A stretch of 64,000 nt of DNA from Nitrosopumilus sp. GTDB taxonomy: Archaea > Thermoproteota > Nitrososphaeria > Nitrososphaerales > Nitrosopumilaceae. This document shows, piece after piece, positions 15,764 through 19,391 of this stretch. The position numbers and the translations under genes are program-made. The notes under the pieces were generated by a model. It saw only the letters and a list, made by a program, of their open reading frames with translations, did not search any database and had not been told where the DNA came from. Within the stretch, counting starts at the first letter, position 1. Each line of letters starts with the position of its first letter. The DNA lies in NCBI RefSeq assembly GCF_025699255.1, contig NZ_JAILWA010000002.1:196948-260947 (forward strand), written 5' to 3'.

Positions 15764-17431
15764 ATGGGGCTTAACTATTATCAAATTAAGAAAAATGTTC
15801 TCCGAGCTAGGAAATTAGTTATCAAAGGAACCAATATTGCAGGTTCTGGACATCCAGGTGGTTCCTTTTCTATGGCTGAAATTTTGGGATGTCTCTTCAA
15901 CAAATATCTCAAATTTGATCCTAAAAATCCACAATGGGAAGACCGAGACCGTCTGGTACTCTCAAAAGGGCATGCCGCACCTGGATTATTCTCTAATATG
16001 GCAGTTGCAGGATATTTTCCAGAATCTGAAATTGAAACTCTGAGAAAATTTGGCAGTAAATTACAAGGACATCCAGACTTGAAATGTCCTGGAGTAGAAT
16101 TTTGTGGGGGTTCTTTAGGCACAGGATTATCCTATTCAATTGGAATTGCACTTGCTGCAAAAATTGATTCTAAAGATCATCATGTCTATACTATAATCGG
16201 AGATGGTGAATCGGATGAGGGACAAGTTTGGGAAGCTGCAATGACTGCTTCTAAATACAAAGTTGATAATCTTACGGCTTTTCTAGATAGGAATTTTATT
16301 CAACAAGATTCTTACACTGAAAAAGTTATGCCACTTGATGAAAAGTTAGAAGGTGATAATCTTTCAGAAATGTGGAAAGATGCATCTCGATGGAAAACAG
16401 GTGATAAATGGAGATCCTTTGGTTGGAATGTAATTGAAATTGATGGACATAGAATTGAACAAATTGATGCTGCAATTGCAAAAGCAAATGCAACAAAAGG
16501 AGTGCCTACAATGATAATTTCTAGAACAATTAAAGGAAAATCTATAGAACATATGGAAGATAATCCTCAATGGCACGGAAAAGCTCCTGATTCTGATGTT
16601 GTTCCAATAATTAATCTTGAATTAGATTCACAATTCATGATTTCTCCATCAATCATTGCTGGCGATATGACTAATTTAGAAAATGAAGTTAAAAGATGTG
16701 TTGCTGGCAGAGCTGATTATATCCATCTTGATGTGATGGATGGACAGTTTGTTCCAACTAAAACATTTGATCATATAAAAATTAAAGAACTAAGACCTCT
16801 AACCGTAATCCCATTTGATACTCACTTGATGATCAATGAACCTGTAAAATATGTTAAGGATTACATTGATGCTGGTAGTGACATAATCACTGTACACGCA
16901 GAAGTGACTGATGAATCTAGTTTTGGTGAAATTCATGATTTATTAAAACAAAATCAAGTTGGTGTTGGTTTTTCAATAAACCCTGAAACCGAATTGCCTG
17001 AATGGTCTTACAAATTTTTACCCACACTTGATCAACTAATTGTCATGTCTGTGGTTCCAGGAAAATCTGGTCAAAAATACATTGAGGAAACTCATGAAAA
17101 AATGTCCAGACTAAATTCTATTTTAAAAGAACATAATTTTACTGGCTATATTGAGGCTGATGGAGGAGTAAATCTTGAAAATATTGGCTCTGTTTTTGTC
17201 GATGGTGCACGTGCTTTTGTTGGTGGTGGTGCAATTATTGGACAACAAGATGTTAGAGGCGCTATCAGAGATTTCAGAACTGAGGTTTTGAAATCTAGAA
17301 GACGAAGTTTACTTGATAAAGCACACGAACTAGGTGGTTCTGAATTAGTAAACAAATGGATTGGCTTACACGTAATTGGAGAAAAACAAGAACAAATTAA
17401 AAAAATTGCACAGGAGGTTGGATACATTTGA
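15764..17431 (+). CDS. Transketolase N-terminal subunit fused to ribulose-phosphate 3-epimerase
   Basis: A 555-aa two-enzyme protein. Residues 1 to about 285 are the thiamine-diphosphate half of transketolase: SGHPGGS (28-34), SKGHAAPG, and the TPP motif GDGESDEG (146-153) followed by LDRNFIQ. Residues about 291-505 are a complete ribulose-phosphate 3-epimerase: SPSIIAGD, HLDVMDGQFVP (metal His and Asp), DTHLMI, HAE and EADGGV. A 50-residue helical tail ends the protein. No stop or frameshift lies between the parts. It supplies xylulose 5-phosphate directly to the transketolase half. The C-terminal half and transaldolase follow with four-base overlaps. Confidence 0.93.
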   Translation: MGLNYYQIKKNVLRARKLVIKGTNIAGSGHPGGSFSMAEILGCLFNKYLKFDPKNPQWEDRDRLVLSKGHAAPGLFSNMAVAGYFPESEIETLRKFGSKLQGHPDLKCPGVEFCGGSLGTGLSYSIGIALAAKIDSKDHHVYTIIGDGESDEGQVWEAAMTASKYKVDNLTAFLDRNFIQQDSYTEKVMPLDEKLEGDNLSEMWKDASRWKTGDKWRSFGWNVIEIDGHRIEQIDAAIAKANATKGVPTMIISRTIKGKSIEHMEDNPQWHGKAPDSDVVPIINLELDSQFMISPSIIAGDMTNLENEVKRCVAGRADYIHLDVMDGQFVPTKTFDHIKIKELRPLTVIPFDTHLMINEPVKYVKDYIDAGSDIITVHAEVTDESSFGEIHDLLKQNQVGVGFSINPETELPEWSYKFLPTLDQLIVMSVVPGKSGQKYIEETHEKMSRLNSILKEHNFTGYIEADGGVNLENIGSVFVDGARAFVGGGAIIGQQDVRGAIRDFRTEVLKSRRRSLLDKAHELGGSELVNKWIGLHVIGEKQEQIKKIAQEVGYI

Positions 17432-18402
17432 ACGACCCTGTAATGACTGATATGCGTTCAGAATATTCAAAGTCATTAATTCAACTTGGTAAGGAGAATC
17501 CAAATGTTGTTGTTTTAGGTGCAGATACTACTGATTCACTAAAAACTTCTGGATTTGGAAAAGAATTCCCAAATCGATTTTTTAATGTGGGTATTGCTGA
17601 GGCAAATCTTGTAACTGTTTCAGCTGGATTAGCATTTTCTGGAAAAATTTCTTTTGCAAGTACTTATGCAATATTTTTGCCTGGAAGAGCAGTTGATCAA
17701 ATCAGAAACAATGTTGCATACCCTTCTCCTCCTGGAAAAAAAGGACTAAATGTAAAATTAGTCACTTCCCATGGTGGTCTATCTGTAGGTCCAGATGGAG
17801 GCTCTCATCAACAAATTGAAGATATTGCAATTATGCGAGTAATTCCGAATTTCCGAGTCTTTATTCCTGCAGATACAGTAGCAGTTTCTAAATTGACTCA
17901 ATTAATGGCAAAAGAATATGGGCCGTTTTACATGAGAATGGCAAGATCAAAAACTCCTCTTGTCCATTCAGAATCACAAGAGTTTCAAATCGGAAAAGGA
18001 ATTATGTTAAGAGATGGGTCTGATTGTACAATTGCAGCATGTGGTATTACAGTTAGAATGGCTTTAGAAGCTGCTGAATCTTTACAACAAGAAGGAATTT
18101 CTTGTAGAGTCTTAGACCTGTTTTCAATCAAACCTATTGATGATGAAATTTTAGAAAAAGCTGCAAGAGAAACAGGTTGTATAGTAACTGCAGAGGAACA
18201 TAATATTTTTGGTGGATTAGGCTCAGCTGTGGCAGAATCTGTTTCTGAATCTTACGCTGTACCCATTAAAAGAATTGGAGCCCAGGATATGTTTGGGGAA
18301 TCTGCAAGAGATAATGAAATTCCATTACTCTTGGAGAAACATGGAATAACATCTTTTAATATAGCAAAACAAGTCAAAGAAATTAGGAGTAAAAAATTAT
18401 GA
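17428..18402 (+). CDS. Transketolase C-terminal subunit
   Basis: A 324-aa protein with the pyrimidine-binding domain (FFNVGIAEANLVTVSAGLA, carrying the Glu that activates TPP) and the transketolase C-terminal domain (EEHNIFGGLGSAVAE). It completes the enzyme with the N-terminal half encoded immediately upstream. The TTG start overlaps the upstream stop (TTGA) and lies nine bases after a strong GGAGGT ribosome-binding site (17413-17418), which supports TTG over the ATG at 17443. The split form of transketolase is common in archaea. Confidence 0.93.
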   Translation: MNDPVMTDMRSEYSKSLIQLGKENPNVVVLGADTTDSLKTSGFGKEFPNRFFNVGIAEANLVTVSAGLAFSGKISFASTYAIFLPGRAVDQIRNNVAYPSPPGKKGLNVKLVTSHGGLSVGPDGGSHQQIEDIAIMRVIPNFRVFIPADTVAVSKLTQLMAKEYGPFYMRMARSKTPLVHSESQEFQIGKGIMLRDGSDCTIAACGITVRMALEAAESLQQEGISCRVLDLFSIKPIDDEILEKAARETGCIVTAEEHNIFGGLGSAVAESVSESYAVPIKRIGAQDMFGESARDNEIPLLLEKHGITSFNIAKQVKEIRSKKL

Positions 18403-19070
18403 AAATTTTTCTAGATACTGCCAATCTTGAATCTATTAGAAAATTCAATGATATGGGACTACTTGATGGAATTACAACTAATCCCTCATTAATGTCAAAA
18501 GAAGGAGGCAATCCAAAAGATGCCATGGCAGAGATTACAAAAATTATCAAAGGAGATGTAAGTCTAGAAGTTGTCAGTACTGATTATTCTGGAATGATGG
18601 AAGAAGGCAAACGTCTCCGTCAATATGGAGAAAACGTTGTAGTTAAAGTTCCAATGACTCCAGATGGTCTTAAAGCATGCAAATCTCTGTCTTCTGAAGG
18701 TATACCAGTAAATGTTACATTGATATTTTCTGCAAACCAGGCTTTACTTGCAGCAAAATCTGGTGCAAAATATGTTAGTCCATTTATTGGAAGATTAGAT
18801 GATATTGGACAAGATGGAATGGAACTAATTAAAGAAATCAAAAAAATTTTTGAAAATTATCCTCAAACAATCAAAACTCAAATTCTTGTTGCAAGCGTTC
18901 GTCATCCATTGCATGTTATTGATGCCGCAAAAGTAGGTGCAGATGTTGCAACATTGCCTCCTGGAGTTTTAGATAAGATGATGTTACATCCGTTAACAAC
19001 CATTGGTTTAGAAAATTTTCTTAAAGACTGGGAAAAACTCAAAGCTGGAAACTCTGATATCAAAATATAG
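18399..19070 (+). CDS. tal: Transaldolase (short TalC/MipB type)
   Basis: A 223-aa TIM-barrel aldolase of the small transaldolase class. The family start MKIFLDTANLESIRKF, DGITTNPSLMSKEG and the Schiff-base lysine in VVVKVPMTPDGLKA are visible. It transfers dihydroxyacetone units between sugar phosphates, finishing the non-oxidative pentose-phosphate set with the two genes upstream. The ATG overlaps the preceding stop by four bases and follows an AGGAG site. Small family members can instead be fructose-6-phosphate aldolases, but context favours transaldolase. Confidence 0.92.
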   Translation: MKIFLDTANLESIRKFNDMGLLDGITTNPSLMSKEGGNPKDAMAEITKIIKGDVSLEVVSTDYSGMMEEGKRLRQYGENVVVKVPMTPDGLKACKSLSSEGIPVNVTLIFSANQALLAAKSGAKYVSPFIGRLDDIGQDGMELIKEIKKIFENYPQTIKTQILVASVRHPLHVIDAAKVGADVATLPPGVLDKMMLHPLTTIGLENFLKDWEKLKAGNSDIKI

Positions 19071-19121: not shown

Positions 19122-19391
19122 TTAACTACCTTTGTTTCTACTTTTCCTTGAACTAGTTCCTCTACCTGTACTTCTAGTCATTCCTTCTGTAGAAGGTCTT
19201 GCTTTAGGTTCAGGCATGTCTCCTAATTTTCTTGAACCGGTTCCACGTCCTGTATGAACCATCCTATTTGCAGTTGCTTTTTTCCTTGCTTCTTGGATCT
19301 TTCTAAATTCGTCGCCAGACCATTTTGAAGCATCTTCATCAACTTCGATAGTTCCTGTGCCTCTGCCAGTTCTAATTCTAATTTTCCCCAT
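19122..19391 (-). CDS. Small basic protein with three TGRGT motifs, unknown function
   Basis: An 89-aa, strongly basic protein. The motif TGRGT recurs at residues 8-12, 47-51 and 75-79 (TGRGTGT, TGRGTGS, TGRGTSS), each followed by Ser/Thr or a basic stretch. The middle (SKWSGDEFRKIQEARKKATANR) is predicted helical. The Arg/Gly repeats recall RGG-type RNA-binding tails, but no family was recognised. Single-gene unit between transaldolase (convergent) and corA (same strand, 66 bases upstream). ATG start. Confidence 0.72.
   Translation of the reverse strand: MGKIRIRTGRGTGTIEVDEDASKWSGDEFRKIQEARKKATANRMVHTGRGTGSRKLGDMPEPKARPSTEGMTRSTGRGTSSRKSRNKGS

Follow-up and report, generated by a model that had tools for sequence, protein, structure and literature searches.

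The locus described here raises the question of whether a single reading frame that carries half of a transketolase and a whole ribulose-phosphate 3-epimerase (RPE) is a genuine fused gene and, if so, how it arose and what it does. Few cells in the sea outnumber the ammonia-oxidizing archaea, whose pentose synthesis has been described mostly through lists of genes. The analysed DNA (the window) is a stretch of 64,000 nucleotides from a Nitrosopumilus genome (contig NZ_JAILWA010000002.1), and positions given without a locus name refer to this window.

Fusion gene and its cluster

The fusion gene is located at 15764..17431 on the forward strand and encodes 555 aa from an ATG start, in a single open frame without internal stop. 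Its transketolase N-terminal (TPP/PP) domain (TktN; 15764..16618, residues 1-285) matches Pfam Transketolase_N (PF00456) at residues 12-280 with an E-value of 1.1e-48, and its best solved relative is 6yak. A short junction (16619..16633, residues 286-290) leads into a complete RPE domain (16634..17278, residues 291-505), which matches RPE structures in the PDB and Pfam Ribul_P_3_epim (PF00834) at residues 293-492 with an E-value of 1.4e-50; both Pfam matches are far over cut-off. The protein ends in a helical tail of 50 aa (17279..17428, residues 506-555). Two shorter features lie inside the domains, namely the PGKSGQ loop of the RPE (17057..17074, residues 432-437) and an insertion in TktN (16340..16399, residues 193-212), which the alignment places in the family of the window genome (f1) and not in a second fused family (f3), and which is modelled with pLDDT about 50-60. 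All these features are on the forward strand, and neither the tail alone nor the TktN insertion alone matched any family in Pfam. An initial annotation, made from the nucleotide letters, had described an uninterrupted frame joining TktN to a complete epimerase, with borders at about 285 and about 291-505 and a 50-residue helical tail. The ORF and the Pfam matches bear this out, the borders and coordinates are correct, and the tail is helical in an AlphaFold model.

TktC, with the transketolase pyrimidine and C-terminal domains, follows at 17428..18402 on the same strand (324 aa; PF02779, PF02780). Its TTG start overlaps the stop of the fusion gene by four bases (TTGA), and an in-frame ATG lies within it at 17443; the overlapping start is also present in relatives, as ATG in several of them. 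TktC hits the split transketolase 6yaj/6yak in its C-terminal chain, with an E-value of 1.5e-96. The arrangement is that of a split transketolase, with the PP domain, the TPP/metal residues and the catalytic histidines on one chain, and the Pyr and C-terminal domains encoded separately in the adjacent gene. The third gene, at 18399..19070 on the forward strand, encodes a TalC/FSA-like transaldolase (223 aa; PF00923, TIGR00875) and overlaps TktC by ATGA, so the three-gene cluster with four-base overlaps stands as initially annotated. Transaldolases differ from fructose-6-phosphate aldolase (FSA) at two positions, Gln59 and Tyr131 in FSA, and here the motifs LEVVS and VSPFIGR have Glu and Phe there. 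The same residues are found in the aligned solved transaldolases 1vpx and 3s0c, and the protein is classed as a transaldolase rather than an FSA. Adjoining the cluster at 19122-19391 on the reverse strand is a short ORF (89 aa, basic) in which a motif resembling T-G-R-G-T-x-x-R-K occurs three times.

Conservation of the frame among relatives

The search took in 300 genomes of the order of the window genome, 132 of which belong to f1. The TktN-RPE fusion is kept as one frame in 128 of the 132 genomes, in one of which it ends at residue 490 at a contig end; the remaining four comprise two contig-end fragments (G553 and G559) and two genomes without match (G542 and G565). In f3, a single match is found in 66 genomes, and all 21 of the matches listed cover both halves without stop. 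Named proteins like those of f1 come from Nitrosopumilus, Nitrosarchaeum, Nitrosotalea, Nitrosopelagicus and Cenarchaeum types, and those like f3 from Nitrososphaera/Nitrososphaeraceae. Among named genomes, those of Nitrosopumilus come nearest, with identities of up to 94%, which places the host within the Thaumarchaeota/Nitrososphaerota. As to whether the fusion is general there, it is present in the Nitrosopumilaceae-type (f1) and Nitrososphaeraceae-type (f3) families, but the genes are separate in four other families. Viral contigs were also searched for a relative of the fusion, and none was found.

All parts of the fusion are under purifying selection, which is strong at the linker. Among 21 close relatives, dN/dS rises from 0.043 (TktN) through 0.048 (linker) and 0.073 (RPE) to 0.16 (tail), while the epimerase loop, at 0.015, is the most constrained stretch measured. 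These results bear directly on the reading that a frameshift or assembly error joined two genes, for which the initial annotation had pointed to a region near nt 16620. No point in support of such an error was found; the frame recurs in 128 of the 132 f1 genomes, with many single-contig genomes among the 128, Nitrosotalea devanaterra and other named genomes have the fusion too, and purifying selection spans the junction. The frameshift is thus refuted, and an artefact of any such kind deserves practically no weight.

Other arrangements of these genes were also seen. G275, which has the fusion, carries a second, divergent split transketolase pair without epimerase (L044:2290-4013, reverse strand; identity 39% for TktN and 33% for TktC). 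In the families f64, f56, f63 and f57 of the order (G350, G368, G393, G404, G342, G373 and G343), TktN and RPE lie far apart or the transketolase matches are only distant. Pentose metabolism therefore varies within the order.

Origin of the fusion

In the four families f2, f54, f59 and f60, TktN, RPE and TktC are found in the same order as in the window, with transaldolase next where it was found. These clusters are alike in gene order and sequence relatives, but their TktN and RPE are separate neighbours and the RPEs read there end without a tail. In f59 and f60, single matches near 1e-125 to 1e-135 gave the appearance of a fusion, but the genes are separated by stop codons and this candidate was discarded. 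In two f10 genomes the gene order is TktN, TktC, RPE. We built a tree from TktN, RPE and TktC of 39 loci, in which all forward (TktN-RPE) fusions form one clade (support 100/99) and f1 and f3 are each monophyletic. Because the forward fusions form one clade, a single origin is sufficient on these sequences, placed in the ancestor that f1 and f3 share. That ancestor would already have had a TktN-RPE-TktC-transaldolase cluster, in which the neighbouring TktN and RPE genes merged.

The tail occurs in both fused families and in no unfused cluster read. In the AlphaFold model it prolongs the last epimerase helix (497-534) and adds a second one (541-552). With a profile of the f1 tail, hmmsearch gave 8 of the 11 f3 tails higher scores than any of 2000 shuffles, yet with E-values of 0.002-0.035 only, and hhalign paired the first helix of f1 with the last segment of f3. 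A shared origin of the two tails is likely, although short of proof because the profile alignment is out of register.

A fusion in the reverse order, RPE-TktN, was discovered in two genomes of one genus from another class of the same phylum. In G297 it is one frame on the reverse strand (L041:4599-6203) in which both Pfam domains are found, followed by TktC and transaldolase; in G652, an assembly of 3 contigs, it is on the reverse strand at L175:1495-3108, followed by TktC. The two proteins are 83% identical over 534 residues without stops, and what is presumably a PRPP synthetase-like gene lies directly upstream in both genomes. A binning error was considered when the form had been seen in G297 alone, and was rejected with the second copy in G652. 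In the 39-locus tree the reverse fusion sits on a long branch outside the clade of forward fusions.

Catalytic residues, fold and the epimerase loop

In TktN, His30, His70, His103, Asp147, Asn177 and His271 occupy transketolase catalytic and cofactor positions, and in RPE, Ser296, His321, Asp323, Met325, His354, Met356, Met428 and Asp466 are conserved; each of these residues is invariant in 49 of 49 fused sequences. His321, Asp323, His354 and Asp466 make up the two-His/two-Asp set of metal and acid/base residues expected of an RPE. The AlphaFold model (monomer, from the 49-sequence alignment) has pLDDT 87.9 and pTM 0.90, and its low-confidence regions, about 91-120 and 181-210, are both in TktN and include the insertion. 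The modelled TktN superposes on the alpha chain of the split transketolase 6yak with Z 35.9 over 277 residues, and the modelled RPE is a TIM barrel that matches PDB RPEs with Z 31-33 and rmsd 1.6-2.4 A over 214-228 residues. The RPE falls below the strict equivalog model TIGR01163 (179.9 vs a cut-off of 212.6 bits) and passes the subfamily model NF004076 (184.6 vs 165). On these scores, assignment to the RPE subfamily is safe and strict RPE equivalence is likely. The fusion is the sole PF00834 match in a genome that is 99.5% complete. Because the catalytic residues of both halves are invariant and the genome holds no other epimerase, the protein is likely bifunctional.

The initial annotation had also called the PGKSGQ loop unusual, and so it is. 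In most relatives the loop is PGF[GSA]GQ, but f1 proteins have K, R or Q at the F position, and f3 proteins have F or S, mostly as PGFAGQ. The residue before PG is V or I in most f1 proteins, and N in f3 and in the aligned solved RPEs. Since the change is absent from f3 and unfused relatives in f2, f54, f59 and f60 have PGF, it postdates the fusion and belongs to one of the two fused families. Moreover, stand-alone epimerases of f64 (L087, L089 and L090) have PGKTGQ, with a lysine apparently gained independently, which indicates that the loop change is independent of fusion. As far as these sequences tell, then, the fusion does not explain the loop. With K for F and S for G, the rate or specificity of the f1 epimerase could differ.

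Probable role in pentose synthesis and alternative readings

Glucose-6-phosphate dehydrogenase (G6PD) and 6-phosphogluconate dehydrogenase (6PGD) were searched by family in the genome, and neither was found; the gluconeogenic fructose-bisphosphate aldolase/phosphatase family (FBPase_3) and RpiA are present. From this gene content, net flux most likely runs from fructose 6-phosphate and glyceraldehyde 3-phosphate to pentose, so that transketolase would make xylulose 5-phosphate for the epimerase to consume. By the established chemistry of the non-oxidative route from these two substrates, each round has two transketolase steps that yield xylulose 5-phosphate, the substrate then converted by the epimerase. 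The proposal of the initial annotation that the fusion delivers xylulose 5-phosphate to transketolase therefore probably runs backwards, and coupling, if any, should run from transketolase to epimerase. Its other proposal, that the fusion fixes the ratio of the enzymes, is retained for TktN and RPE, whose 1:1 ratio follows provided that the fusion protein is uncleaved, but not for TktC and transaldolase, which remain separate proteins.

The best explanation, to which we give a probability of roughly 0.8, is that the protein of Nitrosopumilus-like ammonia oxidizers is a bifunctional subunit, fused once, that acts in the non-oxidative pentose phosphate pathway and whose epimerase removes xylulose 5-phosphate. 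The TktN part would pair with separately made TktC into an alpha2beta2 transketolase with TPP held where these chains meet. RPE would extend from the C-terminal end of TktN, which is free in a split enzyme; in one-chain transketolases the PP-Pyr linker occupies this position. As a split enzyme does without the linker, a further domain could be attached at the end of TktN. There, RPE would interconvert xylulose 5-phosphate and ribulose 5-phosphate. As the autotroph most likely makes net ribose 5-phosphate from fructose 6-phosphate and glyceraldehyde 3-phosphate, the epimerase would remove the xylulose 5-phosphate made by transketolase and hand ribulose 5-phosphate to RpiA. RPE is multimeric in many organisms, and the monomer model is uninformative on how such a multimer would fit with a transketolase heterotetramer, which we count against this explanation together with the altered f1 loop.

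A different reading takes the epimerase half as inactive or altered in substrate, serving now as a structural or regulatory module, with PGKSGQ as the sign of it. The replacement of F by K, R or Q and of G by S, common to f1 and absent from f3, together with the V or I in place of N before PG, would fit such a loss. However, all metal and acid/base residues are invariant, the same loop is under the tightest constraint, and the genome is without another epimerase, which makes this reading improbable. A further reading accepts both activities and adds true metabolic coupling, in which xylulose 5-phosphate would move from one active site to the other and the tail would hold the epimerase in place against the TktN:TktC complex. 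The independent reverse-order fusion speaks for it, as do the restriction of the tail to fused forms and the pTM, which suggests that the domains of the model are fixed in position relative to each other. On the other hand, gene adjacency eases fusion, co-expression by itself could account for two fusions, one in each order, and the tail evolves faster than the other parts; coupling in this sense is thus a tentative suggestion. Equally speculative is its evolutionary form, that coupling of transketolase and RPE was selected at least twice, as tailed TktN-RPE in ammonia-oxidizing archaea and as RPE-TktN in another class of the phylum, pulling xylulose 5-phosphate to ribose 5-phosphate without an oxidative branch.

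For the preferred reading, a bifunctional subunit, the fusion offers a concrete handle on pentose synthesis, since one protein should carry the only epimerase and half the transketolase of the genome. Natural controls for the effect of fusion on pathway kinetics exist in the sister families with unfused clusters and in the RPE-TktN form.

Comparison with known systems

The fusion itself is already known. Padalko, Nair and Sousa (2024; PMC11237513) reported a TktN-Rpe fusion, cluster 341.1, in 73 of 98 thaumarchaeal assemblies, and our protein fits their description of TktN and a complete Rpe in one frame in a thaumarchaeal host. Their passage on cluster 341.1 gives the fusion and its count, and the text on the fusion makes no mention of the reverse-order form. 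The present work adds the placement of the event with the sister gene order and single origin, the tail, the loop and the timing of its change, the likely direction of flux, and the reverse-order fusion. A search of the literature for experiments on the fusion returned nothing beyond that paper.

The top-scoring solved relatives of TktN and TktC are the chains of the Carboxydothermus hydrogenoformans split transketolase (6YAK/6YAJ; PMC7661550), which is active as alpha2beta2, inactive as single chains and without the one-chain linker. It likewise has TktN and TktC on separate chains, but lacks the epimerase, the 20-residue TktN insertion and the tail of the present fusion. Compared with stand-alone RPEs (1RPX, 2FLI and human 3OVR), the fold, the metal ligands and the acid/base residues are held in common, whereas the present RPE is fused at its N-terminus, has the PGKSGQ loop and extends into a long C-terminal helical tail.
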